A stretch of 64,000 bases of DNA from Prostheceraeus crozeri (lineage: Eukaryota; Platyhelminthes; Polycladida; Euryleptidae): assembly GCA_907163375.1 (NCBI GenBank), contig CAJQUW010007073.1:517700-581699 (forward strand), given 5' to 3'. Positions within the stretch are counted from its first letter, which is position 1. Every line of letters starts with the position of its first letter. The notes below the pieces were generated by a model. The model saw nothing but the letters and a program-made list of their open reading frames with translations, ran no database searches and was not told where the DNA came from. A program made the translations under genes and the position numbers. Positions 30,414 to 53,351 of this stretch are shown piece after piece.

Positions 30414-30415
30414 AA

Positions 30416-31585: not shown

Positions 31586-31639
31586 GTCCCTCCAAACACC
31601 CCGAGAACGAACCATCGGCTCTCTTAAGGGCCACCATGG

Positions 31640-32782: not shown

Positions 32783-32820
32783 GTTGACTGTGAATAATGA
32801 CTTTGAAATGTTTTCTAATT

Positions 32821-32833
32821 CTGAAGTATCAAC
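32821..32833. repeat. Left 13-bp duplication flanking the LINE insertion
   Basis: CTGAAGTATCAAC, identical to 35,482-35,494. A 13-base exact match at these two places is very unlikely by chance and fits a LINE target-site duplication. Confidence 0.75.
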
Positions 32834-32863
32834 AAGCAACCAATCAGAATGAACAGCCAATGA

Positions 32864-35224: not shown

Positions 35225-35377
35225 CTTCTATCTGATTCTACTTCTGATGTATTTTATAAATGATTTGTGTAACGCTACTTCTGAATAACCACCGGTTGTG
35301 AAGTACGAATAAAGCTACATTATTATTATTATTATTATTATTATATATGCAAAGTGACATTCGTGTCATTTCACTCT

Positions 35378-35475
35378 GTCTTTGAGACGTATAAGTGAAG
35401 TGTTCTCTAGCGAATTCTATATTTGAGGTGTACAAGTGAACTGCTCTCTAGTGAATTCCAAATTTGAGACGTATT
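35378..35475. repeat. 41-bp tandem repeat, about 2.3 copies
   Basis: Units begin TTTGAGACGTATAAGTGAAG and TTTGAGGTGTACAAGTGAAC, with a third partial unit. They lie just after the (ATT)n tail and just before the zinc-finger gene. Confidence 0.75.
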
Positions 35476-35481
35476 ATTTGA

Positions 35482-35494
35482 CTGAAGTATCAAC
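35482..35494. repeat. Right 13-bp duplication flanking the LINE insertion
   Basis: Matches 32,821-32,833. The zinc-finger gene's ATG is only 22 bp further on, so the LINE sits in what must be the promoter region shared with the minus gene at 32.3 kb. Confidence 0.75.
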
Positions 35495-35515
35495 CTTAAA
35501 CTTGATTTCATTGAA

Positions 35516-36010
35516 ATGGTAAGTTGAAAATTTCTTCACTCATCTCCCTCAAACGTGTGGCTAATAGCATTTTCCTCAAATTCAGGCATCAACTTCATCA
35601 CCAACGCCCTCCCTTCTCGAGGAAAGTTTAGAGTTGTTGAGTCAAGGTAGGTTGTAACAATACACTGAGACTTGAACAGAGATGAAAGAATGATTTCTCT
35701 TTCAGGTGATACCAGTTCCATCTCGTGCGAGTCCATATCAACATTGTCGCGGGAATGCAACGATCGGGAATGTGCTGACTGTGGACACATCTTCACGAGG
35801 AAGCGTGATCTCATCCGACACATCAAGCGAGGTGTTTGTAGACCTAAGCCGGCATCAACCTCCGAAGGTAGGGATGATTCTGTTAACGATGTCTCCTTTT
35901 CTTGCGATTTATGCATTCAGTCTTTCGAGACACGTTTTGAACTATCTTCGCACAGACTTCAACATACACACAGTGACGATAGTTATACTAACAGCACCTC
36001 CTCTATCTGA
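35516..36010 (+). CDS. C2H2 zinc-finger protein, three exons with an ATG-only first exon
   Basis: Predicted exons: ATG alone at 35,516-35,518 (donor GTAAGT follows at once), 35,586-35,646, and 35,706-36,010, with acceptors TTCCTCAAATTCAG and CTCTTTCAG. The protein is about 121 residues. The start is Ser/Thr-rich, then two C2H2 fingers appear: CADCGHIFTRKRDLIRHIKR and FSCDLCIQSFETRFELSSH. It ends 42 bp before the PolB ATG on the same strand. It probably binds DNA or regulates transcription. The same start-codon splicing occurs in the zinc-finger gene at the other end (51,690). Confidence 0.7.
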
Positions 36011-36052
36011 CTCACTGAAGTGTCCATAAATAATTTAGTGAGGAACTACCAG

Positions 36053-39000
36053 ATGGACTCCTCAGAAACCATTGCTATCTTTGAGGAATGGTTTCATCAA
36101 AATTCATCATTGATAGAAGCGCTCTTCAACAATTTAGACAATTTTAGAATGAAGGCGCTCATCTATCTTAAAATAAAATATGTAAAAATCGACCACCATA
36201 CTGGACAAATAATAGAGAGGTTGGAGTTTCACATACCCTCCTCTCCTGCAACCGAGGTTGTAGACTATGAGTCTTGGATAAATTTTCACATCAAAGGATT
36301 AAAATTAAATATTGATGAATTTAACGAGCGCGATAGTGGTCTCATTTTTGACGGCATTGAGTCCGCCTTATTTAAAATCACTTTATTAGAGAACTACTCT
36401 GGACGAGGCTCCTTTAAACTTGCGAAAAGTTTAAAAAATAAAACAGCAGTCATTTCTGTAGATTGTGAATCGCAATGTTTTAAATATGCTGTCCTCTCCA
36501 TTCTCCACTATAATGATGTACAGAATAGCCGATACCGCAAGAGTAAGTATCAACAGTGGGAGAATGAATTAAACTTCGATGACTGTAATAGTGACGATAT
36601 GAAAATTAAAGATATAGAAAAATTTGAAAAATTGAACAACATTAAAATAGTTCTCCATGTTTGGGGAAAAGGATTGAAGGGTGTGCGCTACAACTCGCGT
36701 TCGAGTTGTTATGAACGTACAGTAAACCTGTTATTAGTAAAACAGGATGATAGTGAGGAATGGCACTACTGCGGCATTCCCAAAATCTCTCGCTTATACC
36801 ACCACTTAGAAAACTCTAGTAGAGAGTTATATTACTGCGACAGATGTATTCGGAACTTTAGGAGTAAAAACAAATTTGAAACTCATTACGAATGGTGTAA
36901 GCGAGGTAAACTGCAAATGGAGCGCATGCCCAAAGATAAGGAGTTTTCATATAGAGAGAATGGCGATGAACTAAGTCCTCTTCGTGTCATCTATGCTGAC
37001 ATCGAATGCTATATCGATGATAACATCCATCGACCAGCAGCCATTTCCTGCTATGAAGTATGGCATGATCACTTTAGGGGTAGGCAAAATAAAATGCGCG
37101 TCTGGCAAGGTGAGGATTGTATTTACCATTTCCTACAATTCCTCGAACAGGCTGTAAAATTTCAGCAAAAGTATGATGGTGAACTCTATCGCAGATCATT
37201 GCATATGACAGCAGATGATCAAGCAAAATTTGATAGCTGCAACGTTTGCCCCAAATGTAGGAAAACATTTGATGATGATAAGATTAAGAAAGTGCGCGAC
37301 CATGATCACATCACTGGTAAATTTAGAAACGCACTCTGTTCAAAATGCAATTTTTCACTTAGGATGAAACGGCGTACATTACTCGTCATTTTCCATAATT
37401 TCAAGGGCTACGACAGCCATATGATAATAAAAGGAGGTTTAGGTCAAATGAAAGAGTGGAAGCTTGATGTAATAGCACAAACGAGAGAGAAGTTTATGGC
37501 CATGACAGCAAAAGTGCCTGTCGATAAAACTAAAGAAAATAAGACGGTCTATTTTGATATAAAATTTTTAGATTCCTACCAATTTATGACTGCATCACTG
37601 GCCTCTCTCGTACAAAATCTAAAGTCTCTTCCACTAACACAAAATCTTAAGAAACAATATCCAAATCTAACCGATGAAGTCATCACACGGAAAGGAGTCT
37701 TTCCATATGCATATTTTGATGCGATTAGTAAACTCGGCGAGACTTCTCTTCCGCCCATAGATAAATTTAAAAATGATTTGAGCGGTGCAGAATGTAAGAC
37801 CGAAGATTATGATCATGCACAAGATGCATGGATAAAATTTGACTGCCATACATTTGGTGAATATATGATTGCCTACCTTAAGTTAGATGTATTTTTGCTG
37901 GCTGATGTATTTCAGGAGTTTCGACGAGTGGCATTAGAAGAAGATAAGTTAGATCCCGTCCACTTTGTCAGTCTGCCAGCCATGTCATTTAAGTCTGCTT
38001 TTAAAATGACTGGTGAGACCATTCATCTCTTACAAGATCCAGAGATGTATAATTTATTTGAGCGAGGAATTCGCGGTGGTCTCACATTTGTAAATAAACA
38101 TAGGTTAAAATCAAAAGTAGTAGGTAATGATCATACCCATCTTAAGTATTATGACCAAAATAATTTGTATGGTAGTTCATTATCCAAACCACTCCCTCAC
38201 TCTGAGTTTAGCTGGTTAGATGATAGTGAAATTCAACATTTCTCCAACCCTTCTAACATACTAGCAATTCCAGATGAAGGTGATTGGGGATATTATTTTG
38301 AGATAGATCTAATCTATCCAAATAATATTAAACATAAAACCGTAGATTTTCCACTCGCACCCGAATCAGGTGAAGTGACCAAAGATATGTTTTCCGACTT
38401 TATGAAACAATTTCATAAAGATTTAAAATCATGCGGTCAACCCGACTATAAGCCTTGCCGCAAACTTTTACTCACCCAGTATGATAAGGAAAACTATCTA
38501 GTCCACTTTAGCATCTTAAAATTTTATTTAGAAATGGGTATGATTTTAAAAAGAGTTCACCGCATTATTAAATTTAGACAGAAAGCTTTCCTCAAACCAT
38601 ATATTGATAGCAACAGCAAGAAACGTGCACTAGCCCAAAATAATTTTGAAAAAGATTTTTATAAATATAAGAACAACAGTCTATTTGGTAAGACGATGGA
38701 GGATGTTAGAAAACGTGGAAACTATAAACTAGTCAATGATGTTACAAAATTTAAGAAATTGGTCTCATCACCTCTATTCATCGATAGAGACATTATCGGT
38801 GAGGACCTTGTAGGTGTTAAAATGATAAAATCTGAAGTTGAGTTGTGCAAGCCCATCTATATTGGTCAAGCTGTACTAGATTACTCTAAGCTTGAAATGT
38901 ACCAACTCTTTTATAAAATACTAAAACCATGTCCTCTCGTAAAAGAGGTTCGTTTGTTGGGTGGCGATACAGATAGTTTCTTCTTAGGTATTACCACTCA

Positions 39001-39502
39001 AAAAGATTTAAATTTCAATGAAGTAGGAAAATCTTTAGAAAGATATTTTGATACATCAAATTATCCTACTGATCACCCACTCTACTCCATCAAAAATAAG
39101 GCAAAACTTGGCTGCTTTAAGGATGAGACAGCAGGGAAGGAAATAGATGAAATGATTCTCCTCCGTCTAAAAATGTACAGTATGAAATTAAAGGATAGTG
39201 ATGATAGCATTAAGCGTGCTAAAGGCATATCAAGATCATTGGTCTCTAACATGAAACATAAGAATTTCAGGAAAGCCTATAGAAATAAAAATATAACATT
39301 TGTCAATATGACAATCTTAAAATCTAAGTCGCATGAGATCAAAACTCATACTTTTAGGAAACGGGCGCTTTCAGCATGGGAGGATAAGAGGTGCTGGCTA
39401 GAACACAACATATCTCTTCCACATGGACATCCTGACACAAACATACCACCACCCAAAAGAATTAAACTCACACTACCACATTCAGGAGACGTCTTAGCAT
39501 AA
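36053..39502 (+). CDS. polB: Protein-primed family B DNA polymerase
   Basis: 1,149 residues from the ATG at 36,053, intact; the frame is open 33 bases further but starts there with GTG. Domains: an N-terminal region with FKYAVLSILHY typical of Polinton polymerases; a Cys/His cluster YYCDRCIRNFRSKNKFETHY; exonuclease motif I IYADIECYID (about residue 315); an HNH/endonuclease-VII-like zinc block, CPKCRKTF...VRDHDHITG...ALCSKCN (about 393-425); Exo II HNFKGYDSHM (446); Exo III YMIAYLKLDVFLLADV (603); polymerase motif A YYDQNNLYG (698); motif B KNNSLFGKTMEDV (872); and motif C GGDTDSFF (968). It replicates the element, probably primed by a terminal protein. All catalytic motifs are present. Confidence 0.97.
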   Translation: MDSSETIAIFEEWFHQNSSLIEALFNNLDNFRMKALIYLKIKYVKIDHHTGQIIERLEFHIPSSPATEVVDYESWINFHIKGLKLNIDEFNERDSGLIFDGIESALFKITLLENYSGRGSFKLAKSLKNKTAVISVDCESQCFKYAVLSILHYNDVQNSRYRKSKYQQWENELNFDDCNSDDMKIKDIEKFEKLNNIKIVLHVWGKGLKGVRYNSRSSCYERTVNLLLVKQDDSEEWHYCGIPKISRLYHHLENSSRELYYCDRCIRNFRSKNKFETHYEWCKRGKLQMERMPKDKEFSYRENGDELSPLRVIYADIECYIDDNIHRPAAISCYEVWHDHFRGRQNKMRVWQGEDCIYHFLQFLEQAVKFQQKYDGELYRRSLHMTADDQAKFDSCNVCPKCRKTFDDDKIKKVRDHDHITGKFRNALCSKCNFSLRMKRRTLLVIFHNFKGYDSHMIIKGGLGQMKEWKLDVIAQTREKFMAMTAKVPVDKTKENKTVYFDIKFLDSYQFMTASLASLVQNLKSLPLTQNLKKQYPNLTDEVITRKGVFPYAYFDAISKLGETSLPPIDKFKNDLSGAECKTEDYDHAQDAWIKFDCHTFGEYMIAYLKLDVFLLADVFQEFRRVALEEDKLDPVHFVSLPAMSFKSAFKMTGETIHLLQDPEMYNLFERGIRGGLTFVNKHRLKSKVVGNDHTHLKYYDQNNLYGSSLSKPLPHSEFSWLDDSEIQHFSNPSNILAIPDEGDWGYYFEIDLIYPNNIKHKTVDFPLAPESGEVTKDMFSDFMKQFHKDLKSCGQPDYKPCRKLLLTQYDKENYLVHFSILKFYLEMGMILKRVHRIIKFRQKAFLKPYIDSNSKKRALAQNNFEKDFYKYKNNSLFGKTMEDVRKRGNYKLVNDVTKFKKLVSSPLFIDRDIIGEDLVGVKMIKSEVELCKPIYIGQAVLDYSKLEMYQLFYKILKPCPLVKEVRLLGGDTDSFFLGITTQKDLNFNEVGKSLERYFDTSNYPTDHPLYSIKNKAKLGCFKDETAGKEIDEMILLRLKMYSMKLKDSDDSIKRAKGISRSLVSNMKHKNFRKAYRNKNITFVNMTILKSKSHEIKTHTFRKRALSAWEDKRCWLEHNISLPHGHPDTNIPPPKRIKLTLPHSGDVLA

Positions 39503-39807
39503 TCATCCTTAACTTAGTATTTTGATGTTGATTTCAGTAGATAAACATTGTTGTTTTATGTATCGCATGAGATTGTTTTTTCCTTGTGAATATGTGTCCA
39601 CATCTGTACATTCCCCATGTGATGACTTTTCCACTGAAAGACATTTTTCCTATCCCTGTATATTTCCACCCTTCACGAAGTAAAAAGACTTTTTGTATAT
39701 AGCAATGTTTATTGAAGTGCGCTCATGTATATATTTTCAGTGGATGTTGTATAAAGTCTATTGCTTCACATTCATGTACATATTTCAATAAATGTTGTAT
39801 AAAGACT
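39503..39807. terminator. Convergent 3' ends of PolB and a minus-strand virion gene
   Basis: AATAAA on plus (about 39,786) and TTTATT, that is AATAAA on minus (about 39,704), lie between the two stop codons, so the transcripts would overlap. A partial 66-bp duplication is visible (both halves contain GATGTTGTATAAAG or AATGTTGTATAAAG). Confidence 0.55.
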
Positions 39808-41328
39808 TCACTTTGTTTTCCGAAACACTAACGTTATGAGGGATTTAGTATCTTTCACGTGGATGCACTCTTGTAAACCATTGGTAATTTTGATAGCAAT
39901 AGAGGGTATAGTTTGTTTGACGACGGGATGATAGAAAATAGATTCAAACATCTTCTCGACTATTCCATATGAAGCGTCTTTATCATGAATGAAATCACGT
40001 AAAATGTATTCTTTTTTCTCACCAACAGAAATAGGTAGAATCAAATCACTTTGAATGTAAAGGTGCTGTTCATGTTTATCAAGTGTCATTGGTGTTTCTA
40101 TACCAATCGTATGCGCAGCAGCAAACACTGTTTGTAGCATTGAAAAACCAAAGAGTTTTTTCAAATTTTTACTCAATCGACATTGAATGTCATCACCCAG
40201 TCTCAGAACAACGCGTTGATTTTCAATTGAAAACGAAATGTGGTGTGTCTTTACATCATATTTACTTTTCATCACATGCTTCAACTTCTGTTGTATATAA
40301 GGATTTACTACATGAATGAAGCTTTCAACTGTATGATATAGACGCGGCATTATATTGATAGCAACTTTAGATTCTTCATAAGACTGGTAAATTTTCTTGA
40401 TGCGATCGCCATAGATGTCCACCCACCATTCATCATTAACTGAATCAGCTTTAGTGTGATATTCATGAGAAGCATACACCACACCGCTTCCAATAATAGG
40501 TGTATAATGTCTTACAAAATGACGCAAGGTTGGAGAGAAATAAACTGTAAGTTTGTCATTATATTTCTGAATAACCAACTTATTTTTGTTCGCCATAATT
40601 TTCTCTCCATACTTCTTACCCACAGTCTCATTCCATCGTTTTACTAACTCAATAAGTGATAAAGGTTGAACACCACGCTTTTTCAAAATGATGCGTTCTT
40701 CACATTCTACAACATCTTCATCAAATATTTTAAATCTATAATGAAATTTGTTGATTCGATTTGAATAAACTTTTTTAACATTTGCAGTAGCAATTGATGT
40801 TAGATGTAGTCCATGACCAAAACCGAGATGTGGATAGAATTCATTATCCAACCTCAGCGTAAGACCTTTAGTAAAAGAATGAAAGCGGAGGAACTGTCTC
40901 CCACTCCAATGATAGATAGTAAACTCATAAGCTTTCTGATTTTTATTCTTCATGATGGAAGTATTACCACTGTTGAATGCCTTAATAATTTTCTCATTCC
41001 CAAATGGCTCATAAGAATCTGATTTTATCTGAATCCATTCATAGTTCCACTTTCCATCTGATGTTAAATTGTATGGGAACTGAAATGCATTATTCATCGT
41101 TATTCCATCATGGGTGCGAGGAGTCAATATCATTTCTTCCAAATCATTCACATTCTGAATATTGCTATCATAGCAAATACTAGAAACGCCAACCTCCCAT
41201 TCTCCTTCTAAAAGCAGTGGCCGATTTAATTCTACTCGATATTCTGATGGTTTATTTTTGGGAAATTTATTCATAGAAGCATTACTGGGCAAGTAGATTA
41301 GAAACGAGTCCTTATTTTCACTTTCCAT
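39808..41328 (-). CDS. WEVG-type Polinton virion protein candidate 1
   Basis: 506 residues from the second ATG (MESENKDSFLIYLPSNAS); the frame is open 10 codons earlier. The N-terminus has the pattern LPSNAS...FP-KNKPSEYRVELNRPLLL, then GEWEVGVSSICYDS, shared with the next gene (41,368-42,765). From memory this block recurs in invertebrate Polintons. Repeated beta-rich stretches follow; no catalytic motif or membrane segment is seen. It could be a minor capsid or penton-type protein, but that is inference. Intact. Confidence 0.55.
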   Translation of the reverse strand: MESENKDSFLIYLPSNASMNKFPKNKPSEYRVELNRPLLLEGEWEVGVSSICYDSNIQNVNDLEEMILTPRTHDGITMNNAFQFPYNLTSDGKWNYEWIQIKSDSYEPFGNEKIIKAFNSGNTSIMKNKNQKAYEFTIYHWSGRQFLRFHSFTKGLTLRLDNEFYPHLGFGHGLHLTSIATANVKKVYSNRINKFHYRFKIFDEDVVECEERIILKKRGVQPLSLIELVKRWNETVGKKYGEKIMANKNKLVIQKYNDKLTVYFSPTLRHFVRHYTPIIGSGVVYASHEYHTKADSVNDEWWVDIYGDRIKKIYQSYEESKVAINIMPRLYHTVESFIHVVNPYIQQKLKHVMKSKYDVKTHHISFSIENQRVVLRLGDDIQCRLSKNLKKLFGFSMLQTVFAAAHTIGIETPMTLDKHEQHLYIQSDLILPISVGEKKEYILRDFIHDKDASYGIVEKMFESIFYHPVVKQTIPSIAIKITNGLQECIHVKDTKSLITLVFRKTK

Positions 41329-41367
41329 ATTATTCACATTGGAAAAATATATTAGCATACGTTTGCA

Positions 41368-42765
41368 TTAACTCTTCATTCGGAAATGGAGTGTGATACT
41401 TGTCACAGCATCTTTATGAAAAGGAATCAACGCACCAGCATCGTCATAAATGGCAATATCAATTTGTGGGATGTAGTTTGATTTCAGCTTTGTATAATGC
41501 ACTTTCTTGAAAGTATGCTCAGATAAAATACTGCAGCTTTTTGGCTGGTATGGTATCATTGCTAGCAATGGAGCTTCAACATCTCCCACACGTACATCTT
41601 CACCAATATTGGAATATATCTGAAAATAGTTAATACGACGCGATAGCGACATGTCTGCGCTAGCTTTGGTTACAGTACCACTTTTAAAGATATTTTGATC
41701 AAAATCCAAAATGTCCATTAGAGTTTTATCCATAATTAGTTCAATACCTTTTCCACTTATAGTGAGAGACAGAACACCTTCTCTTTCAGAAAATGAAATA
41801 TGTTGCTCATTAATCACTTCATTTAAATAATCTACAACCAATTTAACCGAAGTAATAATGCGAGGCATCAACACTCTTGTTTCATGTAAGATACCACCTA
41901 AAGGCTCTACACACTTTCTGTATAAAGATACGGACCATTCTGTATCAAATTGATTTGACTTTTCACATGGTAAATGTTGCATATCAGATTTTCCATGAAC
42001 AGCTGCAGAACGATGTCGTAAGAACTGATGAAAATTTTTGAACAAACTAATACTAGATCATCATCATTTAATTTGCTTATTGCAATATGATTAGATGATT
42101 TAATATAAGTCAATGTTGCCACTTGTTTACCATCAACTCGAAGGAGATAATTAAATTTCTTCAATAATGTTTCAGGAGTCATGTTTGTCTTTCTTGGCTT
42201 AATCACAATCTTCTTCACCAACGTCTTCTCATTTCTTGGAATAAGATCTACATAATAAGCTTCCTCTCGATATATTAACTGTTTATGACCACTTATGTGG
42301 TAATTAACGTTAAAATTATCATAGCTTGTTAAGGCGCTAGCGAGGTAGCCTAAATCACTTCTTAAACTTGGACTTAAACCAAACAATCCAATCTTTCTCA
42401 ACTACATGATGTACATAAGTATAATCATCATTGTGCGGAGTAAATTGGACATTATGTTTACACGCTTTATTCAAGAAATCATATATAAACTTTTTACATG
42501 ATAAGAGATCTTTCTTTGGCCACTGTGGAATGTATACTCGGCACCCCTTTTCACATTGGTAAGCAGCTGTACGCCTCATATTAATGGTCATCACCTCATG
42601 ATCAAAAGTATAGACACAGTTGCTATAAACAAGTTGAGTGACACCCACTTCCCAATTTCCATTTAGCTGTTGTGCATGATCAATGGGAGTAGAAAAGAGT
42701 GCGGCTCGATTACTAGCAAATCTCTTTGTAGCCGCATTGCTAAGCAAAATATGATAAAACGACAT
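41368..42765 (-). pseudogene. WEVG-type Polinton virion protein candidate 2, two frameshifts
   Basis: Starts at ATG 42,765 (MSFYHILLSNAATKRF) and carries NGNWEVGVTQLVY, so it is a diverged paralogue of the gene next to it. Three overlapping frames (42,765-42,355, 42,401-41,907 and 42,045-41,368) together cover about 460 residues. Breaks lie near 42,385 (TTT run) and 42,030. The last part has the family's C-terminal block, VGDVEAPLLAMIP and IDIAIYDDAGALIPF...LHFRMKS. Single-base changes in short runs may be true mutations or assembly errors. Confidence 0.6.
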
Positions 42766-42800
42766 TTTTATATTGCTGATCTGCAACTTTGCATAACATC

Positions 42801-43157
42801 ATGAAGACTTGGATTTTGGACTCTCTACAATATATCAGAGTTGATCGTGATGGAAACGTACATTTCAAAAATTCTCATGGTCATACATCAAGAGGAATTA
42901 CATTAACATGGCGACAATTTGTCAACCTCAATGATATCATGAGGGATTTGGAATATTTTGAAACATTAAGATTCATCTCCTTGGGTGATCAAGTTTGGCT
43001 TCAACATTACAGAAATGAAATTCAAATCTACCATTCTCATTCCGCAAACTGTTTCTCATTTCGCAAATACAATTGGGAAAAGTATAGAAGATATATACAT
43101 CGCTCCATCATGACATTTATTCGTCGTGAGTTCATCGCCCTACTATGCAAATCTTAA
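42801..43157 (+). CDS. Polinton small protein, possibly PC4-like, copy 1
   Basis: 118 residues from ATG 42,801 (MKTWILDSLQYIRVD). It starts 35 bp from the divergent virion gene. The sequence has two similar halves: DGNVHFKNSHGHTSRGITLTWRQFVNLNDIM, then a WLQHYRNEIQIYHSHS strand region and SFRKYNWEKYRRYIHRSI. The GITLTWRQF...L...I element resembles the strand-helix end of PC4-type transcription coactivators (GISL-x-x-x-QW-x-x-L). That resemblance is my inference. Being a neighbour of a TBP-like gene makes a transcription role plausible. Confidence 0.55.
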   Translation: MKTWILDSLQYIRVDRDGNVHFKNSHGHTSRGITLTWRQFVNLNDIMRDLEYFETLRFISLGDQVWLQHYRNEIQIYHSHSANCFSFRKYNWEKYRRYIHRSIMTFIRREFIALLCKS

Positions 43158-43179
43158 TCAGACATGACTACCACACATC

Positions 43180-43830
43180 ATGAGTTGGAAATTAGATTCC
43201 CTACAACGTATTGAAACGGATCATGATCGAAACGTCTATTTCAAAGATTCAACTGGAAATGTGAGAAGAGAGTTTGCTTTATCTTATCGTCATTTTCAAT
43301 CTCTACATCATATCATGAAGGACTTGAAATACTTCTATATGAAAAGACATTCACGTATTGGAAATCGCATCTGGCTGCGCGTCAACAATCGGCGAATTCA
43401 ACTCTATCATTCCCAACTTCATACTAACTTCACATTTCATCAAGGTAGTTGGGAAAAGTATAAAAGGAAGGTACATCGCTCAATTTACTCATTCTTTCAT
43501 CATGAAGCGCCATCGCTACACCATCGTCAACATTCTCCGTCGCTTCAGACTCTACACCAAAATCGATCTCACAACATTACACCAACAGCTTCCAAACAGC
43601 AAGTATTACCCGGGCCGCCCTCAAATGTTAGTGGTGAAGATGAACAATTCACGGAATCTTCAACTCTTCCCAAATGGGACTGTACGGATTCTCGGCGCCC
43701 TTTCTCATTCATCGGCGCAGTCAATGCGCTTAGAGCTACAAAGACTACTACGTCGGATATGGAAGAGGGAGAGGTGTGTGATGTCGAATCTGACTGTGGA
43801 CAATATGGTGATCTCTACTCAATTGAGTGA
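43180..43830 (+). CDS. Polinton small protein, possibly PC4-like, copy 2 with overlapping tail
   Basis: 216 residues. The first 110 are clearly paralogous to the protein at 42,801: WKLDSLQRIETD, NVYFKDSTGNVRREFALSYRHF, IWLRVNNRRIQLYHS, SWEKYKRKVHRSIYSFF. The next 106 residues (from about 43,510) are read in a different frame from the TBP-like gene and are Ser/His/Thr rich with an acidic end (DMEEGEVCDVESDCGQ). The paralogue stops where this tail begins, so the tail may be fortuitous or a real overlapping extension. The real product may be just the 110-residue domain. Confidence 0.55.
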   Translation: MSWKLDSLQRIETDHDRNVYFKDSTGNVRREFALSYRHFQSLHHIMKDLKYFYMKRHSRIGNRIWLRVNNRRIQLYHSQLHTNFTFHQGSWEKYKRKVHRSIYSFFHHEAPSLHHRQHSPSLQTLHQNRSHNITPTASKQQVLPGPPSNVSGEDEQFTESSTLPKWDCTDSRRPFSFIGAVNALRATKTTTSDMEEGEVCDVESDCGQYGDLYSIE

Positions 43831-44047
43831 CAGTCTATCATTTTTGAAGATTCGTACCAGCAGTTACAATTTGTGTTATGAACCCGAACTTTTTCCTGCA
43901 GCTCTCATTAGTTGTTGGTTACCTGTGCATGTGGAAATCTTTCATAATAGTAAAGTGATCATTACTGGACTAAAATCTCATGTACAAGCAAATATGATCC
44001 TAGACTATCTCATTGAGTATGTACGTACCCAGCGGATTGTAAAATAA
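43502..44047 (+). CDS. TATA-binding-protein-like transcription factor
   Basis: 181 residues from ATG 43,502, the size of the TBP core. Two direct repeats of the TBP saddle are visible. Repeat 1: TIVNILRRF, TKIDLTTL, LPNSKYYPGRPQ, LFPNGTVRILGA. Repeat 2: LTVDNMVIST, NLCYEPELFPAALI, VEIFHNSKVIITGLK. Both follow the TBP pattern (NIV, L-x-x-[KL]-DL, Y-x-P-x-RF, LIF-x-SGK-[MV]-x-x-TGAK; and QNMV, YEPELFPGL). Three of the four DNA-kinking Phe positions are Phe; the fourth (RF in repeat 1) is RP here. It has no N-terminal extension. It probably directs RNA polymerase to the element's own promoters. It overlaps the previous gene by 329 bp in another frame. Confidence 0.88.
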   Translation: MKRHRYTIVNILRRFRLYTKIDLTTLHQQLPNSKYYPGRPQMLVVKMNNSRNLQLFPNGTVRILGALSHSSAQSMRLELQRLLRRIWKRERCVMSNLTVDNMVISTQLSDSLSFLKIRTSSYNLCYEPELFPAALISCWLPVHVEIFHNSKVIITGLKSHVQANMILDYLIEYVRTQRIVK

Positions 44048-44072
44048 AAAACAATTTTCCAACATGATGTTT
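44048..44072. terminator. Short convergent 3' junction
   Basis: AAAATAAAAAAC just after the TBP-like stop (AATAAA on plus), next to the end of the minus-strand protease. The gap between stops is only 25 bp. Confidence 0.45.
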
Positions 44073-44535
44073 TTATTTCAAATCATGATAGAACTTACAA
44101 ATCATTTTTTCATTAGAGGATGGATTACATGAAAAGTTTTGAATAACAGATGCAAATCGAGATACATGTAAACGTTTTAAGATGAAGTACAGTACAAAAG
44201 CACCACACGTTGATGAAAGTGGATGTTGTAGTATGCGTTCATTTCGCTGATATTGACGCGTATGTTTTCTCAACCACTGCTGTGTTGGTATATTTGGAGG
44301 TTGAGCAAGAGAGTCAAATAGTTCACCACGTCGGTCTTCTCCAATAAAGATCGCTTTCCAATGCTCACCGCCTAAATTCTGTGAATGAGTGTTTTAGCAC
44401 AATAAAGATGGGATAGTGATTTACTGCAGGTGGTAAGGTATCGAGTGAATAGACATTATCGAAAGCTTTCAACGTCGCTTCGTCTGCATTACGCTGCACT
44501 TTAGTCTTAATATCGTCAGCAGTCAACCAACTCAT
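44073..44535 (-). pseudogene. Adenain-like cysteine protease (PRO), one frameshift
   Basis: Starts MSWLTADDIKT at 44,535, its ATG sharing one base with the MCP stop (TAATG). The protein is about 150 residues. After the break it shows GGEHWKAIFI (catalytic His), ELFDSL (Asp-type), and LQHPLSSTCGAFVLYFI (oxyanion Gln and catalytic Cys), as in adenovirus-type maturation proteases of the C5 family. The break is one extra base in an A4 run at 44,391-44,394. A GT-AG intron reading is possible but would remove a conserved strand before GEHW. It matures virion proteins. Confidence 0.75.
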
Positions 44536-45812
44536 TAACGATTATACTGAAGAATCACGTCACGATACTTTGTAATTTCAATATTTGAATCGAAGACTGC
44601 ATAAATTAATACATTGATCGTCTCAGGTAGTGTTCTTTTGAACGTCAAATCCAAACGAATATTATGAGGCACGTTCGCTTGACGATAGGGTGCACTAATA
44701 TCGCTGTCAGCAGTCAAATCAAATGCATAAATAGTATATCCACTCTTAAACTCTTTCATAGTAAGTCCGTTGGTGTCATCCGTATCGTAAAAGCCAAAGA
44801 CATCCATAAAATCAACATAACTGCGCATAAATTGATCCGAAGCAAAATCTGGTTTGTAGGGTGGACCAGGATGACTGACACCATTTACACGTAAAGCAAT
44901 TTCACTTAACTGATTGTGTTTAAAATTGAAAGGATTCTTCTTTATATTACCATTAAATGCATTATTTTCAACCATTGCCACCATGAGGAGCTTCGGTGCT
45001 TCCGATGGAAAGAGGCCATCTTTCATGAAACTCTTTTGATCTTTCGGAATTGTAAAGGTGAGAAGCTTTGTATGCTGAACGGGGTAAATGGCATTTTGGC
45101 GGTTAAGGCCTTCAGCATGCCCTCTAATGACACTTGGATTCGGTACTACTCGACGAATGTAAAGTGCAATATCTTCCACATGAATTCTAAAATTGTCAAC
45201 TTTAGCAAATGCATTCAGCGCAAATTCAGGCTTATTCAATGTCAGCTTGAGTCGCATGCTGGTATTACACAGTAAAAACTTTGACTGTCTAAAGAAGTCT
45301 AAATTCAGCGGACCATATAGTTGACATACTTTACTATCTTTAATCATAGCAGATCGCTTTACAAAGCCACTGTTTGTTTCAACATCAAATTTTCCTGCTT
45401 CATCTCTATACCATCCCATGGCTTCCATATGACTTTTTTGTGCTGCTGGATGAAACTGTGATACATGATTGAAATATGATTTATAGGGATAATCGCTTTG
45501 ACCACCTTCCACCTGCTGCTCTCCAATCGTTAGAGAAACATCGCGAAGTAATGTAGTCAATGGTAAATTGTTCAGTCCAACTTTATGTGCATCGTCAATA
45601 GCAGTTCCATCTGCTTGCTGAATTCTAAACCTCAAATCAAGCATCGCATAACTCAAATCTATGTAGTCATCACTACCACCAGGAATAACAAATTCAATGG
45701 GGCCAGCATTCTCAGCTGTTCGAGGATGATAATCTACAATACTTGAACTAAGAATATCTGTCTGTATTGCTTGTTGATCAAACAAACAAAAACCGGAAGT
45801 TTTACACTCCAT
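44535..45812 (-). CDS. Major capsid protein candidate (double jelly-roll type)
   Basis: 425 residues, intact, in virion-gene context between the protease and core-like genes. Visible blocks: PIEFVIPGGSDDYIDLSYAM, a SDYPYKSYFNHVSQF region, NLDFFRQSKFLLCNTSMRLK, KKNPFNFKHNQ, and the C-terminal TIYAFDLTAD...IRLDLTFKRTLPETINVLIYAVFD. They match a protein widely found in invertebrate Polintons. It is nearly all beta-type sequence with no catalytic motif. I assign it as the MCP from size, position and composition; jelly-roll folds cannot be seen directly. Confidence 0.65.
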   Translation of the reverse strand: MECKTSGFCLFDQQAIQTDILSSSIVDYHPRTAENAGPIEFVIPGGSDDYIDLSYAMLDLRFRIQQADGTAIDDAHKVGLNNLPLTTLLRDVSLTIGEQQVEGGQSDYPYKSYFNHVSQFHPAAQKSHMEAMGWYRDEAGKFDVETNSGFVKRSAMIKDSKVCQLYGPLNLDFFRQSKFLLCNTSMRLKLTLNKPEFALNAFAKVDNFRIHVEDIALYIRRVVPNPSVIRGHAEGLNRQNAIYPVQHTKLLTFTIPKDQKSFMKDGLFPSEAPKLLMVAMVENNAFNGNIKKNPFNFKHNQLSEIALRVNGVSHPGPPYKPDFASDQFMRSYVDFMDVFGFYDTDDTNGLTMKEFKSGYTIYAFDLTADSDISAPYRQANVPHNIRLDLTFKRTLPETINVLIYAVFDSNIEITKYRDVILQYNR

Positions 45813-45814
45813 GA

Positions 45815-46269
45815 TTAGAAGTTATAGCAGCGTCGTCGTTTAGCGCCTGATGAATGATTAGAGCCTCTACGACGTTTGCGTGAATGCCTTTTGACTGAAG
45901 ATCGCACCTTACCAGCTCCGCGATGTTTCCTCCTTCCTTTATTCATTCGTTTAGGTGATTTCTTTCCTTGAGTAACACCAGCAAAGGTCTGCTTCAATGT
46001 TTTTAAACCGCGTTCCTTCCACGATTCAACAAACTGCTCTTAAAACTTCTACCTCTGGAAAGATCACTAGCAACATCACCAGCAAAGCCAACGGCATTAC
46101 TTAAAACATTTCGTTTTAAAGATCTACCGACATTGGATATGAGAGGTGCTACAACAGATTTCAGTGCACCAAGTATGCTACCTCCACGTTGGCGGCGAGC
46201 GCCCATGTAAATTTGTCCTCCACCACTTACATAGGAGGGTCGTGAATAAAATGAGGCAGTTGGATTCAT
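45815..46269 (-). pseudogene. Small basic core-like virion protein, one frameshift
   Basis: The first frame (46,269-46,003) reads MNPTASFYSRPSY, then ARRQRGGSILGALKSVVAPL. The second (to 45,815) is a very basic tail with KKSPKRMNKGRRKHRGAGK and KRHSRKRRRG. They join as one protein of about 150 residues if a base is added near 46,030 (GTTTG run); the sequence just before the second frame's start stays open in that register. Gly-rich hydrophobic head plus Arg/Lys tail resembles adenovirus-type core or membrane-lytic small proteins, by analogy only. It ends 2 bp before the MCP start. Confidence 0.6.
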
Positions 46270-46310
46270 AGCTCAAACCCTAAACATTGTTAGTTACAAC
46301 TTTGCATGAA

Positions 46311-47399
46311 TCACTGTCGATCACTTAGATGAAAGATGTCGGCAGGACGCATCCAAGAGTTCATACTTGAAGGATAACCAGTCCATTTAACAAGACACCA
46401 TTCTTCACCTTGCCGTTTTTTACATCGAATGATTTTCTCTACCAAATATGTTTCACTTTCAGTGACTACCTCAATCTCATCGCGGTAAAAGCTACCCTCA
46501 ATTTCTTCATTATCGTAATCTTTCAACTTGTAGGTGGTCGGAGAGTCTTTTTGATTAATCCTTGATACTGTAAATACCTCCTCTGTCCAATTCGGAAGGT
46601 ACCCTTTAGCAAAAACACTTTTCACTTTTGAGATACGAACTTTATCGCCAATTTTCACATCAATTTTCACATGAGTGCGTTTACGTTGGAATGATTCGCG
46701 CACTTTATCTACATTGTCAGCATTTACATCTACTGGTCTGAGTCCAATAGAGCGATGGATAGAGTGATTGTAGGCATGGAGTGTATCTTGTAGAACCTTT
46801 GTCCAATTTTGTGTCAAGTTGGCAGTAAAATGTCGCCACAAGCGATTTTTTAATGTGCGATTAAAACGTTCAACGAGTGCAGCTTTATAAGCACTGTTTA
46901 CACTAAACAACTCAATGTCATGCCTCTCAAATAATCTTCTCACATGCTGATTTTCAAACTCTTTTCCTTGATCACTCTGAATTCTTTTTGGAATCCGACC
47001 TTCTCGAAAAATTGTTTGGAATGCTTTTGCTACTCCTTTCCCTTCTTTAGTTTTTAAAGGTTGAGCCCACGCATAACGCGAGAAAATATCAATGACGGTT
47101 AAAATAAAATTATTACCCGAGTTATGTTTTGAAATGGAGGCGACATCGCACAAATCTGCTTGCCACTGTTCATCGATGTCATGAACAATATAATGGCGGG
47201 TGCGGTACTTCTTTTTCGCTTGTTTGTGGAGTGTATAGGTAGCCTGACCCTTTAACCATCGTTTCACTTGTGATTGTGGAAGACCACTCGCTTTTGATAA
47301 TTTCTTGATAGATGCAAATCCTGCCGGATGTTTTACATCATAATAGATTGACTTCAAACGTTCAGTCGATGACGACTGACTCTTTTTCCTCCTTCTCAT
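46311..47399 (-). CDS. int: Retrovirus-type integrase with C-terminal chromodomain
   Basis: 362 residues from ATG 47,399 (MRRRKKSQSSSTERL); the longer open frame upstream overlaps a Cys-rich gene. Domains: an N-terminal zinc-free helical region (KSIYYDVKHPAGFASIKKL), an RNase-H-fold core with the D,D-35-E acids WQADLCDV, SDQGKEFEN and AALVERFNRTLK, an SH3-like region (VKIGDKVRISK), and a chromodomain YLVEKIIRCKKR...WCLVKWTGYPSSMNSWMRPADI. It would insert the element and create the observed 6-bp duplication. The chromodomain may steer integration to modified histones. Intact. Confidence 0.95.
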   Translation of the reverse strand: MRRRKKSQSSSTERLKSIYYDVKHPAGFASIKKLSKASGLPQSQVKRWLKGQATYTLHKQAKKKYRTRHYIVHDIDEQWQADLCDVASISKHNSGNNFILTVIDIFSRYAWAQPLKTKEGKGVAKAFQTIFREGRIPKRIQSDQGKEFENQHVRRLFERHDIELFSVNSAYKAALVERFNRTLKNRLWRHFTANLTQNWTKVLQDTLHAYNHSIHRSIGLRPVDVNADNVDKVRESFQRKRTHVKIDVKIGDKVRISKVKSVFAKGYLPNWTEEVFTVSRINQKDSPTTYKLKDYDNEEIEGSFYRDEIEVVTESETYLVEKIIRCKKRQGEEWCLVKWTGYPSSMNSWMRPADIFHLSDRQ

Positions 47400-47577
47400 C
47401 TTTTTGTTTTCTTGCCTTTCTACATTTACAACAACTACAGCATTTAGCTTTAGCGATTTTGCGATCGTGTTCACATTGCTTAGGGGTTTCATTATGAGAG
47501 CTGGCGCAGCAAGTGCAAGTGACAACGACATTCACCTCTGGCGGCTCATTACATGGCAAGCAACACATCTGCTTCAT
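47362..47577 (-). CDS. Cysteine-rich small protein overlapping the integrase start
   Basis: 71 residues starting MKQMCCLPCNEPPEV, with 13 Cys in the first 55 residues (CTCCASSH, CEHD, KCCSCCKCRKARKQ), ending in a charged KDEKEEKESV tail. It begins one base after the stop of the 53-residue gene and overlaps the integrase start by 38 bp. The Cys spacing suggests zinc binding. I do not recognise the family. Confidence 0.5.
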   Translation of the reverse strand: MKQMCCLPCNEPPEVNVVVTCTCCASSHNETPKQCEHDRKIAKAKCCSCCKCRKARKQKDEKEEKESVVID

Positions 47578-47578
47578 A

Positions 47579-47740
47579 TTAATAGTCTGAGAACATGTAT
47601 TTCCTGGGAGGAGCTGTTTTACGTTTTCCTTTTACCAGTTTTAGTGGCGATGTAGATCTACGTCGAGTTCTTCCTCTTGTTTGCTTAGTGAGTGTGGGAG
47701 GGGATGTAGCAGGTGACGACTTAAACCAATTTGTTGGCAT
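47579..47740 (-). CDS. Small basic Pro/Ser-rich protein, 53 aa
   Basis: Short frame MPTNWFKSSPATSPP through TRGRTRRRSTSP to PPRKYMFSDY. Very basic. It overlaps the end of the preceding frame (47,721). It could be a separate small protein or the displaced C-terminal tail of that protein. Confidence 0.35.
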   Translation of the reverse strand: MPTNWFKSSPATSPPTLTKQTRGRTRRRSTSPLKLVKGKRKTAPPRKYMFSDY

Positions 47741-47956
47741 TTTTCATCGTCTGAAGCGCTGAAAGCATTGGAGCAGTAGCCACTGTTGAATCAAGTTCTT
47801 TCAATGTCTCATTATTCAAAGCAAATTTTGGTACATTATGCTTTTTCAATAGTTTAAGAAAGTATGACCAACCAGGTGGAACATAGCCCTGACGGCGCTT
47901 TCTACGTGTCGCATACTGAATCAAGTCTTCATAACGTGAAGCATCAATCACTTTTT
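47721..47956 (-). CDS. Polinton hypothetical, about 76 aa, start broken in an A8 run
   Basis: The frame reads VIDASRYEDLIQYATRRKRRQGYVPPGW and KKHNVPKFALNNETLKEL, ending MKNANKLV. Its only upstream ATG lies just before eight consecutive A (47,952-47,959), out of frame by one base. A one-base length error there would give an ATG start. Basic, helical; family unknown. Confidence 0.4.
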
Positions 47957-48009
47957 TTTCATCTGTTATGATTTCTCATCTATCATTTACATTGTGTTGG
48001 GGCTAAATA

Positions 48010-48237
48010 CTATTGAAAATAGATATGGCTTGTGCGCGAGATGCTAAAGGTGTAGCTGTCGCGTGAATTAATCGACGTATCAGAGTCACGCATCTTATTC
48101 TTCAAGTTTTTCAATTGCTCAACAGTTTCCGATTGTAATAATACAGCACGATGTGGATCTTTCATGTGAACATTTTGCTGATAATCTATTTCTTTCCTAT
48201 ACATTTGATTTGCAAGAGGTTGCTTTACTTGCTGCAT
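48010..48237 (-). CDS. Polinton hypothetical, 75 aa
   Basis: From ATG 48,237: MQQVKQPLANQMYRKEID, then RAVLLQSETVEQLKNLKNKMRDSD. Helical, charged; no family recognised. Just downstream of the packaging ATPase. Confidence 0.4.
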   Translation of the reverse strand: MQQVKQPLANQMYRKEIDYQQNVHMKDPHRAVLLQSETVEQLKNLKNKMRDSDTSINSRDSYTFSISRTSHIYFQ

Positions 48238-48292
48238 GGCAGTCAATTGTACATATTCATCCTAGGAATAACAATCATGCGAGAATAAGAAC

Positions 48293-48910
48293 TCATAGTT
48301 TGTAGATAATCATGGGAGTTTTCAAAATATCACTTCGAAATCTAAATTCTTCCGGACACTCTTGCGTAAAGTCAATGAATAAGTAACCGTATGGTTTATC
48401 AGTAGCTGCTTGAAAAATTTCAATTAAGGCTTTTGATCCTCTGGGTGCAACTTGTCGCGCTAAAATTTCAAATTGACTTTTATCTCGCGGATTCTTGAAA
48501 ATAGCATAATAGTGTGTATTCAGGTTTCGTGTACGAGCTTCTTTTCCATCAGGAAACAAATTTTGTGTAATATAGATGATAAAACACCTTTTATTGTGTG
48601 CTGCGCGAGTGAACATATCTGTAACATCTTTTGAATTCTTACTTTCTTTTAATAAATCATCCAATACAACAACATCATTAGACTGAAGTTTATCCACTGG
48701 AATAATTCCTTCATGTCGAATAAAGTTGCGACTTTGCAATTCCTGAAACAGCGACGGTTGATAAATACCATAACACCAAATCACTCGATTGATAGGTTCC
48801 TTAAACAACTCCCTTCTTTTAACCAATAAATTCAGCGTGAAAACAGTTTTACCTGCATGAGATGGACCTGATACAGTCAGAACTTTATCACATTGAAGTC
48901 TGAAATCCAT
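48293..48910 (-). CDS. Genome-packaging ATPase (FtsK/HerA-type, A32-like)
   Basis: 205 residues from ATG 48,910 (MDFRLQCDKVLTV); an in-frame TTG lies 16 codons earlier. Walker A is GPSHAGKTVFTLNLL, Walker B is DVVVLDDLL, and a sensor-type ITQNLFPDGK follows, the pattern of Polinton/virophage packaging ATPases. It would pump the element's DNA into a capsid. Intact. Confidence 0.92.
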   Translation of the reverse strand: MDFRLQCDKVLTVSGPSHAGKTVFTLNLLVKRRELFKEPINRVIWCYGIYQPSLFQELQSRNFIRHEGIIPVDKLQSNDVVVLDDLLKESKNSKDVTDMFTRAAHNKRCFIIYITQNLFPDGKEARTRNLNTHYYAIFKNPRDKSQFEILARQVAPRGSKALIEIFQAATDKPYGYLFIDFTQECPEEFRFRSDILKTPMIIYKL

Positions 48911-48941
48911 TTTATTACTTTGAGACTCAACATTTGCATAA

Positions 48942-49297
48942 TTAACGCTTAGAGCCAAAGATATTACCCAATAGGTTGCCCACGGCAGGAGCTATCATTG
49001 GAAGTATTGCTGAAAGGAAACCGCCCTTTTGTGTTAGAGTTTTCCTCTTTCTTTGAAGGGCGACTTTAGGATTGGAGATGAAACGCAATTTCGTAGCATA
49101 TCGCTTAAGTAACTTTCGTTGTTTTGGCGCTAATTTCTTCGTCCTCAACTTCCTCACATGAGAAATAATTTCACAAATGAATTTATCGTTAGCATGTCGT
49201 ATAGCATTGTATCGCTGATTTGCTTTCATTCGTCGGAGAGCTTGAATGGCTGAAGAAAACTTTTGACTTTTACGTTCGTCATTTTACGTTTCGCCAT
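48942..49297 (-). pseudogene. Conserved small Polinton protein with GGFL hydrophobic tail, frame-broken start
   Basis: The open part (49,229-48,942) reads ANDKFICEIISHVRKLRTK, KRKTLTQKGGFLSAILPMIAPAVG and ends NIFGSKR. The basic helix plus QKGGFL hydrophobic C-terminus recurs in Polinton small proteins. An earlier ATG at 49,297 begins a frame that meets this one only after one base is changed at a TTTT run near 49,255. If read from 49,226 instead, it is intact at 95 residues. Probably a membrane-active or virion component; not certain. Confidence 0.55.
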
Positions 49298-49348
49298 TTT
49301 CCGTGTTAGTCTTTGCTAAAACCTATCTTTACCACATTTGCATAGGTA

Positions 49349-49672
49349 CTAACTATTGCGACATAAGTGACACTCGAAATGAGCAATATCACAGTGGTTA
49401 CATTGGCAAAGTTGAATGCAATTACGTATGAAACAGCGTTGACAAAAAGCATGCTTACATCTCTTGAAGATGCGCTTTTCATTTCCATCCTTTCGCTTAC
49501 ATACATCGCAACACATAGTTTCACCGTTACTGATGTCTATAGCAAGTCTTTTTGAAGATATGAATTTGCTAGCCTTTTCTAAATAATAGACGCATGTACA
49601 GAAGGAATATACTTCGAGAGTGAGCAGACATAGCTCGAAAACCAGTTGTGCTACAATCAAGTACCACTGCAT
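49349..49672 (-). CDS. Membrane-anchored RING-type protein
   Basis: 107 residues from ATG 49,672. Residues 3-30 are hydrophobic (LIVAQLVFELCLLTLEVYSF), a probable membrane segment or signal anchor. The C-terminal half is a RING-like zinc domain: CCDVCKRKDG, FKRCKHAFCQRC, NHCDIAHFECHLC. That suggests an E3 ubiquitin ligase or a zinc-binding adaptor; the host target is unknown. Confidence 0.65.
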   Translation of the reverse strand: MQWYLIVAQLVFELCLLTLEVYSFCTCVYYLEKASKFISSKRLAIDISNGETMCCDVCKRKDGNEKRIFKRCKHAFCQRCFIRNCIQLCQCNHCDIAHFECHLCRNS

Positions 49673-49674
49673 TT

Positions 49675-50160
49675 TCAATTTTTCTTTATGGAAAGTTGAA
49701 TGTGAATATCTGAAATCGCTTCAATCACTAGACTGCTACCATGATGGTTAAATGCGTTAAGACGTTCAGCAATTTTTATCATATGTCTTTTAAAAAATTC
49801 TTCGGGGTGATCTACCACTTCCATTGAATAAGAAGCAAAAAATGGAAAGAGCGACTTTCCACCTCTTCCTTTCCAAAATGACTAAACTTAATTTTCGCAA
49901 CTAATCGCGCCATGATAATGCTATCAGAGAATGTATTCATTAACTCTAGAAATAGAGTGCTAGCATCATCAACCACTGCTTCGATGTCGGTCTCATCTTT
50001 ATGAAATTTTATCACATAATCTTGAACAGCTCCTTTTTAACTTTGCCTATGAAAACGTAATGTTCCGCAGTCGTTTGAGAAAGACATGATCGCCCTTTAT
50101 CTAACCCATCCATTGCATGAAAACAACAACTCTTCTCATAGTAACATTTATTGAATAACG
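49675..50160 (-). pseudogene. Conserved Polinton protein, two homopolymer frameshifts
   Basis: Three frames in order form one protein: SCCFHAMDGLDKG...YVFIGKV (ending 50,012), KFHKDETDIEAVVDD...ARLVAKIKFSHFGKEE (to about 49,850), then MEVVDHPEEFFKRHM...SLVIEAISDIHIQLS (stop 49,675). Breaks lie in a T5 run (about 50,035) and an A6 run (about 49,850). The N-terminal border is unclear because it overlaps the end of the exonuclease gene. No enzyme motif. The stop overlaps the RING gene's start region. Confidence 0.5.
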
Positions 50161-50174
50161 GTAACAAGCATGCA

Positions 50175-50705
50175 TTATAAATCAATGGTTTGAAAGAGAT
50201 AAAATAGATACAGCTGGTAACTATCATACAGCGAGCAATGATAACCATACAGGACTTTGGCAGTGTTGAGGTAAGGAGGAAAGAAGCATTGGTTATGAAC
50301 GTAGCTACTACAACGAACAGACAAAATAGGAACACACAAATCCTTAAAACGTTTCGTGACTTCATGATAATGTTGATTCACTCTACTATCCCAAGGCGGG
50401 AGCAAAATATCATCAATGATTAGATTGGGAAATACTTTCCTCTCCTTACCAGGATTATTACAAAAGATGCGTATAACATTGAAAGCAGCTAACCATCGTT
50501 TAAAGTCAATAAGAAGAGCACTTTCACAAGAAAAGCCATAGTCTTGCAAATATTTCAGATTAAGTCCATGAATGTGTTTTCTCGCCCATTGATCAACATT
50601 GGGATCGCAGTTGGCATGTTGATGATAGACACTAACAATCTGATATGTCCAATTGTTCATAGCAATAGCACTGAGCTCCTGTACAGGTTCACCCTCACAA
50701 TCCAT
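50175..50705 (-). CDS. DEDDh-type 3'-5' exonuclease-like protein
   Basis: 176 residues from MDCEGEPVQELSAIAM. Exo I is D-C-E in DCEGEP; the middle has HIHGLNLKYLQDYGFSCESAL and IFCNNPGKER; Exo III is HCSLYD, i.e. H-x4-D, near the end. This fits an RNase-H-fold DEDDh nuclease, though the Exo II Asp is not certain. An acceptor-like TTTCCGTTTTAG lies just upstream of the codons before MDCEGE (about 50,725), so a spliced 5' exon is possible. Roles could be DNA repair, recombination or RNA decay. Confidence 0.6.
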   Translation of the reverse strand: MDCEGEPVQELSAIAMNNWTYQIVSVYHQHANCDPNVDQWARKHIHGLNLKYLQDYGFSCESALLIDFKRWLAAFNVIRIFCNNPGKERKVFPNLIIDDILLPPWDSRVNQHYHEVTKRFKDLCVPILSVRCSSYVHNQCFFPPYLNTAKVLYGYHCSLYDSYQLYLFYLFQTIDL

Positions 50706-50756
50706 AAAAATGATGATAGAAGCCTAAAACGGAAATTACACATCTAAGGAAGCGTT

Positions 50757-51690
50757 CTATAACATATTACAAAATGAAGAATTACATCGATGCTTTTCAC
50801 GACAAAATACACAAATGATATGATGGCAACGAAGAAGTAAAATGTATCTAATAAGACCACGTCTACGACACTCAAAGCACATAAGCGAATTGTCATAGGG
50901 TAGAGTTAGGAAAGGGTAGTAATTCTCCTTCTTTGATTTGCGTTTTGATGTAGCATTCTTCTCCGACTTGCGCTTCGTACCACTGCTGTTAAGGATTTGA
51001 TCAATTATGTCGTCCACGTTGGGTGGTTTTGGAATATATAGGATGGATTCCATATGCATGGAGAGAGAGGCTATTTTATTATCCTTGTGTCGACCATAAT
51101 ATAGCCCATTCACTTTGAAAAGGATATCCCAAGTACCTTCTCCGAGCTCATCACATCTGATGGCTATTGATTGATCTCCCTCCTTCTTATAGTAAGTACA
51201 CCAATGTGATACCGGTAGGCAAATGTGATTACCATCCCAAATCTTTCTATAGGAGTATCCTTGTCATCTCTAGCCTTCCACTCTTGAGCAAGAGGAGTAG
51301 GAATGTCCATATTTAATGTCACATACTCCTCAATAATATCAAGTTGGTGGCGAATGTACGGACTCACGGGGATCAGTATGTAGTCCCCATACTGATTGCG
51401 CATTATCTTGACATCCGTGGAAGGGAGCATTCCCGTTTGGAGTACTACGCTATGATCGTCATAACGCAAGACTTGTTTAAATTTACGCTGTAGCGGTGTA
51501 GGATTATGTACCTTGGTTGTTTCTTCCACTGGCCTCAGTTGTAGATGATCTGACCGTAGCGAACCTTGTAACGTTTGACCGCCATTTTGTCCTACTAGTG
51601 CAGCAGATGGAGTAGATGCCTGAAAATGAAAAAAGATTGTATTAAGTTTACGTTCAAGGGAGGAGAGGGAGGAAAGTAGCGACTTACCAT
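50757..51690 (-). pseudogene. Polinton zinc-finger protein with ATG-only exon, one frameshift
   Basis: ATG at 51,690 is followed at once by donor GTAAGTCG. The acceptor TTTTTTCATTTTCAG ends at 51,620 and exon 2 begins at 51,619. The body reads PTPLQRKFKQVLRYDD...SPYIRHQLDIIEEY; near 51,185 one base in an AA/GGAGG stretch shifts it into the frame ending at 50,757. That frame has a basic stretch (KRKSEKNATSKRKSKKE) and a RING-like zinc cluster CFECRRRG...LLRCHHIICVFCREKHRC. It faces inward from the right end with a strong TATA promoter, mirroring the left gene. Function unknown. Confidence 0.6.
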
Positions 51691-51764
51691 TTTAGTTGGA
51701 TAATAGAATAGGGAACTAGAGAGAGAAAATGTGCGTCCGTCACTCGTATGATTCAACGATGGAA

Positions 51765-51836
51765 TGATTCTCACTGTGGAAGGCTCGCTATTTATACAGA
51801 AATGCTTGATTCTCATTGGATGATGATCCTCATTGG
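51765..51836 (-). promoter_or_regulatory. Right internal promoter: two CCAAT boxes, TATA, initiator
   Basis: On minus: CCAAT at 51,836-51,832 and 51,819-51,815, TATAAATAG at 51,796-51,788, and the initiator TCATTCC with A at 51,765, 31 bp from the first T of TATA. The start ATG is 75 bp further. TATA-to-initiator spacing and the TCATTC initiator are the same as at the left end. Confidence 0.72.
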
Positions 51837-51929
51837 ACAATAACATCAAGCTGATTCCAAATCTGGCCTCCGTTTACCAATCCGAGCCTTCATTCGCCTG
51901 GTGGAGATGTATCTTGGGAAATTCTAACT

Positions 51930-53345: not shown

Positions 53346-53351
53346 TCCGTA
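53346..53351. repeat. Right target-site duplication TCCGTA
   Basis: Identical to 27,996-28,001; confirms the Polinton's right boundary. Confidence 0.95.

Follow-up and report, generated by a model that had tools for sequence, protein, structure and literature searches.

The Polinton and its TBP-like gene

The window, i.e., the whole stretch of DNA analysed here, comprises 64,000 nt of Prostheceraeus crozeri (GCA_907163375.1, contig CAJQUW010007073.1, positions 517,700-581,699 of the forward strand). It contains a Polinton/Maverick element in which a gene for a TATA-binding protein (TBP), which marks the sites at which the reading of genes begins, lies next to two genes for Pur-like proteins (Table 1). 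The element is recognized as a Polinton/Maverick by its terminal inverted repeats (TIRs) of about 1.2 kb (principal alignment 96% identical across 1167 columns), by the 6-bp duplication TCCGTA that bounds it, and by the joint presence of a type B DNA polymerase (PolB) and a retroviral-type integrase. Its termini begin AGTAGT, and the excerpt of PMC8097293 describes AGT twice at the start of vertebrate Maverick TIRs. PolB, the chromodomain integrase, the doubled AGT and the 6-bp duplication are features in common with Polinton/Maverick elements and Adintoviridae, but the TBP and Pur-like genes set this element apart from them.

Table 1. Positions of the element, its flanking duplication and its genes in the window
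Feature	Position	Strand	Remarks
Target-site duplication TCCGTA, left copy	27996..28001	.	
Polinton/Maverick element	28002..53345	.	25,344 bp; TIRs begin AGTAGTAAG
Type B DNA polymerase and endonuclease VII-like stretch	36053..39502	+	DNA_pol_B_2 1.2e-15
Element protein, 516 aa	39808..41358	-	no function assigned
PUR1, 118 aa, paralogue of PUR2	42801..43157	+	42% identity; model fits human PURA repeats I-II
PUR2, with a Pur-alpha/PC4-like part at about residues 1-116 and a long tail	43180..43830	+	fold inferred from paralogue PUR1
TATAAAAGG, lead only	43459..43467	+	43 nt 5' of the TBP ATG, within the PUR2 frame
TBP-like gene encoding 181 aa with both TBP lobes	43502..44047	+	
Putative major capsid protein, 425 aa	44535..45812	-	from gene order
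Retroviral-type integrase with chromodomain	46311..47531	-	rve 1.7e-11, Chromo 1.7e-06
Putative packaging ATPase	48293..48910	-	Pfam matches all weak, best 0.03
Core-protein-like ORF	48942..49229	-	Adeno_PX 0.0018, under the Pfam cut-off
Target-site duplication TCCGTA, right copy	53346..53351	.	

The DNA_pol_B_2 match was obtained in a Pfam profile scan of the polymerase piece 36953-38500; it was not listed in scans of the whole polymerase protein or of the piece 37703-39400, and a PDB search with the polymerase ORF gave no match. The 425-aa ORF, which we take to be the capsid gene from its place in the gene order, had no match in profile and PDB searches for a double jelly-roll protein. In the window copy some genes other than the TBP gene are interrupted, and the corresponding frames are longer in two other copies of the same lineage (lineage A, see below). 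For example, the element gene at 41368-42786 (-) is split across several frames, and each of its counterparts in those two copies occupies one frame (465 and 477 aa). A C2H2 zinc-finger ORF (35690-36010, +; 1.8e-07) lies 5' of the polymerase, and a non-LTR retrotransposon ORF (32864-35224, +; RVT_1 2.2e-29) is nested in the Polinton. Sub-repeats arranged in tandem, with about 325 nt per period, lie within the TIRs (28354-29188 and 51936-52916). Immediately outside the element stands a pair of inverted repeats of 445 nt that are 99% complementary (53424-53868 and 54760-55204), and a Mariner-like transposase ORF was recognized by eye at 21057-22052 (-).

The 181-aa protein matches the TBP profile PF00352 in two stretches, corresponding to both lobes, with an E-value of 5.5e-20 (71.4 bits, cut-off 22.9), and has the saddle fold of TBP. 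Like the TBPs of eukaryotes and archaea, it possesses the two-lobed saddle, the glutamates that contact TFIIB, and three of the four kinking phenylalanines, a full set of which is usual in TBP but not universal. It differs from them in its low identity to the TBP chains compared (19-27%), in altered residues at the N-lobe DNA contacts and on the TFIIA side, and in the lack of an N-terminal tail. In Foldseek searches it also matched named giant-virus TBPs (e.g., 1.2e-10). By profile and fold, the element protein is therefore a diverged TBP, albeit not a textbook one. A first-pass annotation of this DNA had described a TBP-like gene carried by a Polinton, with two saddle repeats, three kinking phenylalanines and no tail. 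That observation is confirmed by the profile, the fold, the element ends and the synteny in other copies.

The model of PUR1 adopts the (beta4-alpha)2 fold of Pur-alpha/PC4-like proteins, and the N-terminal part of PUR2 probably does so as well. PUR2 departs from Pur-alpha, PC4 and related single-strand-binding folds by its long tail, which is read over the TBP gene. Sequence searches of Pfam and PDB gave no match to any family. In Foldseek searches with PUR1, dioxygenases led the ranking (0.047), PURA came twelfth (0.11), and no entry reached 0.001. Among the structures in BFVD, adintovirus 'MOSUB' proteins resemble PUR1 weakly: the lancelet adintovirus protein was found at 4.6e-3 (TM 0.65) and the insect one at 0.029, the top row was a T4-like phage protein (1.6e-3), and none reached 0.001.

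Copies, lineages and descent

Searching the 2.05-Gb assembly with PF00352 yielded 10,982 first-look candidates, of which 150 rows were scored; all 150 lie above the cut-off and 9 have a stop. Only 4 of them belong to host loci, namely two exons of the canonical TBP (C9306) and a TRF2-like gene (C3829), so that at least 146 rows lie outside the host TBP and TRF2-like loci. Element TBP queries matched all 37 of the non-host places examined, which were selected by hand from the 146. The copies fall into a window-like lineage A, which contains an 80% subgroup, lineages B and C with about 40-44% identity to A, and lineage D, represented by one place with 37% identity to B. PolB, capsid or integrase matches accompany the TBP gene in 20 of 20 stretches of 8-10 kb and in the lineage D stretch of 7.4 kb, i.e., in 21/21 of the larger stretches. 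In lineage D, an ORF at about 4353 (-) of the reverse-complemented stretch lies between the capsid and TBP genes; by its motif, it looks like an adenain-like protease.

The PUR2 frame runs over the initial 329 nt of the TBP gene and is kept open across copies; on its length, an overlap by chance was rejected. A Pur-like gene and the TBP gene form a common cassette in three lineages, and a Pur-like match sought 5' of the TBP gene in lineage D was not found. For the identity of the PUR2 tail alone, P was 0.42 between lineages A and B, 0.02 between A and C, and 0 of 5000 between B and C. The overlap is a well-supported case of two conserved proteins encoded on about 300 common bases.

Beyond this genome, a protein search of public data with the window TBP returned 28 relatives, and at E ≤ 1e-6 its profile retrieved 982; beyond the best 120, which are those listed, these may include cellular TBPs. 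Searches of viral contigs with the TBP (twice), the capsid protein and PolB gave no match, nor did a search of genome contigs, and among phages the sole match was a haloarchaeal virus TBP (E 0.1). A tree was built from 33 element-family rows and 6 cellular TBP/TRF2 rows, 39 altogether. The two sets are split in it at 100/100, a value that concerns the split and not the placement of the root; lineage D and a partial TRF2 form long branches. As the element and cellular rows are separated and lineages A-D fall among the public-data rows, we read the element TBP as an old acquisition. A recent capture of the host TBP or TRF2 finds no support in the tree. It is noteworthy that the host TRF2-like gene reads EPELHSG and KVYTTG at the C-lobe phenylalanine sites, whereas the element family retains F at both in 126/126 members and accordingly lacks the replacement characteristic of TRF2/TLF. 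The pooled pN/pS is 0.46 for 8 of the 10 lineage A copies, two having been left out for length, and an ATG-to-stop TBP frame of at least 173 aa is intact in 20 of 34 copies.

Conserved surfaces and upstream motifs

For the residue counts, human TBP was aligned with 126 family members, namely the window protein plus 125 database rows; positions are given in human numbering. Since the members were gathered by similarity to the window's 181-aa TBP, their conservation is somewhat inflated and partly due to sampling. Within this set, none of the C-lobe residues that kink the DNA or contact its groove varies, and the positions of Phe214, Phe288, Phe305, Asn257 and Val259 are identical in 126/126. 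The DNA-contact positions of the N lobe are different. The first kinking phenylalanine, Phe197, is replaced by Pro in 121/126, Leu212 by Gln in 121/126, and Val220 by Gln in 125/126, the sole exception being the window's own copy. Ordinary TATA binding may therefore be weak. Glu191, which presumably belongs to the TFIIA side, is Lys in 100/126.

The TFIIB-contact glutamates, on the other hand, are kept: position 284 is E in 121 members and D in 5, and position 286 is E in all 126. In human TBP, E284 and E286 contact TFIIB, and the substitutions E284R and E286R lower transcription (excerpt of PMC7221094). TBPs of giant viruses, asfarviruses and mirusviruses are known (excerpts of PMC7221094, PMC7458399 and PMC10132985; also PMC11464507 and PMC12085832), and the excerpt of PMC10675990 mentions TBPs in mirusvirus-like elements. 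The element protein resembles those of giant viruses, asfarviruses and mirusviruses as a virus-carried TBP fold. However, the viral TBPs known so far differ among themselves at the TFIIB glutamates (about 40% at the first), and almost all TBP-bearing viral genomes also hold a TFIIB-like gene (excerpt of PMC7221094), while the TBP-bearing asfarvirus has its own RNA polymerase (excerpt of PMC7458399). By contrast, the glutamates of the element TBPs are near-invariant, and a scan of 27 ORF translations from the element gave no match to TFIIB or to a multisubunit RNA polymerase; for this reason the family looks built for the use of host TFIIB.

The first-pass annotation knew of no well-described TBP in Polintons, and we likewise came across none described for Polintons or adintoviruses among the literature matches listed, the scope of which did not include the founding adintovirus paper. 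Two of these matches, PMC7786948 and PMC11640650, contain both terms of the search. The term TBP was not found in PMC11071308, PMC10120064, PMC8097293, PMC11071296 and PMC12220804, nor TATA in PMC8363768.

The accompanying interpretation is partly supported. A TBP carried by a Polinton is borne out; that such an element could redirect host transcription to its promoters is a conjecture. The good TATA boxes ascribed to these promoters did not hold up: TATAWA occurs within 120 nt of the start of only 3 of 19 genes, compared with a background of 8%, and TATA boxes were rejected as a general feature of gene starts. The exception is TATAAAAGG before the TBP gene, which is conserved no more strongly than the overlapping code. 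The motif TATAAAAG lies within 50 nt upstream of the TBP start in 28/34 copies, mostly at 43 nt, and doubles as Y-K-R codons of PUR2. In the codon control, however, 19/29, 17/29 and 16/36 of the codons shared there in PUR2 are identical in any case, so that the retention of TATAAAAG represents no excess over the protein code and makes it a candidate promoter at most. Another motif, ATGCAAA, lies 10-40 nt upstream of 5 of the 19 element genes (sites at 43145, 46307, 48939, 42794 and 41368 in the window; 89 of 2000 in a best-of-all-7-mers permutation) and is retained in two lineage A copies. In a scan of six stretches from lineages B and C, it was absent before ORFs of at least 75 aa and was rejected as an element-wide promoter motif. 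A promoter motif common to the lineages was sought and none was found.

Proposed role and competing explanations

On balance, we consider it fairly probable that the gene encodes a true, long-diverged element TBP that starts the element's genes via TATA-like DNA and host TFIIB or Brf, assisted by the Pur-like partner. The TBP gene would have diverged within Polinton/adintovirus-like elements for a long time, and its product would bind TATA-like DNA of the element mainly through the conserved C-terminal lobe, with an altered reading of the 3' half-site. The kept glutamates would recruit host TFIIB (or Brf) and RNA polymerase, so that the element could start its genes while relying less on host TFIID and TFIIA, and the Pur-alpha/PC4-like partner from the overlapping upstream gene may cooperate by aiding promoter opening or activation. 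It is plausible that the protein acts in transcription of the element itself, the more so as the TFIIB-contact residues are kept. Together with the gene that shares its letters, the TBP points to elements that may initiate their own transcription with host machinery. Retained by several diverged Polinton lineages with its TFIIB surface intact and its TFIIA side altered, it would represent a natural separation-of-function TBP, and it would offer a testable way for virus-like elements to turn on their genes in animal cells.

A more specific version of this proposal is conceivable, if tentative. The long-tailed Pur-alpha-like single-strand binder and the TBP, encoded in overlapping frames, might form a compact two-protein initiation cassette, in which Pro and two Gln, in place of the kinking phenylalanine and the hydrophobic groove contacts, rebuild the N lobe to read a new half-site, with host TFIIB retained and control by TFIIA and TFIID escaped. 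If so, the transposon would own a start signal within the host transcription system.

The same surfaces could also serve host shut-off. A decoy TBP that occupies TFIIB or TATA boxes without the support of TFIIA and TFIID would damp host transcription during element activity, and the kept TFIIB side, the Glu-to-Lys change on the presumed TFIIA side and the missing TATA boxes at most element genes would fit it. We nevertheless regard it as unlikely given the invariant kinking and groove residues of the C lobe and the cassette with the Pur-like gene in three lineages, although a decoy could keep these too. An architectural role, in which the protein bends DNA at the termini during replication, integration or packaging and not in transcription, agrees with the altered N-lobe readout, the scarcity of TATA boxes at genes and the residence of the gene in a replicating virus-like element. 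However, such a role has no need of the TFIIB-contact glutamates, and the complete conservation of E286 makes it quite improbable. Brf1 and Brf2 share with TFIIB a highly conserved Arg, which contacts the first of the two glutamates (excerpt of PMC7221094), as would suit a factor that, with host Brf1 or Brf2, drives polymerase III transcription of element RNAs, yet the element genes identified are protein-coding and we give this little credence. Finally, a captured passenger gene without a role, decaying in its copies, would account for the 14/34 copies that lack an intact frame (one of them masked at that place) and for a pN/pS that is not very low, but it is scarcely credible for a gene with invariant functional residues and 28 public-data relatives that is carried by all lineages at only about 37-44% identity.
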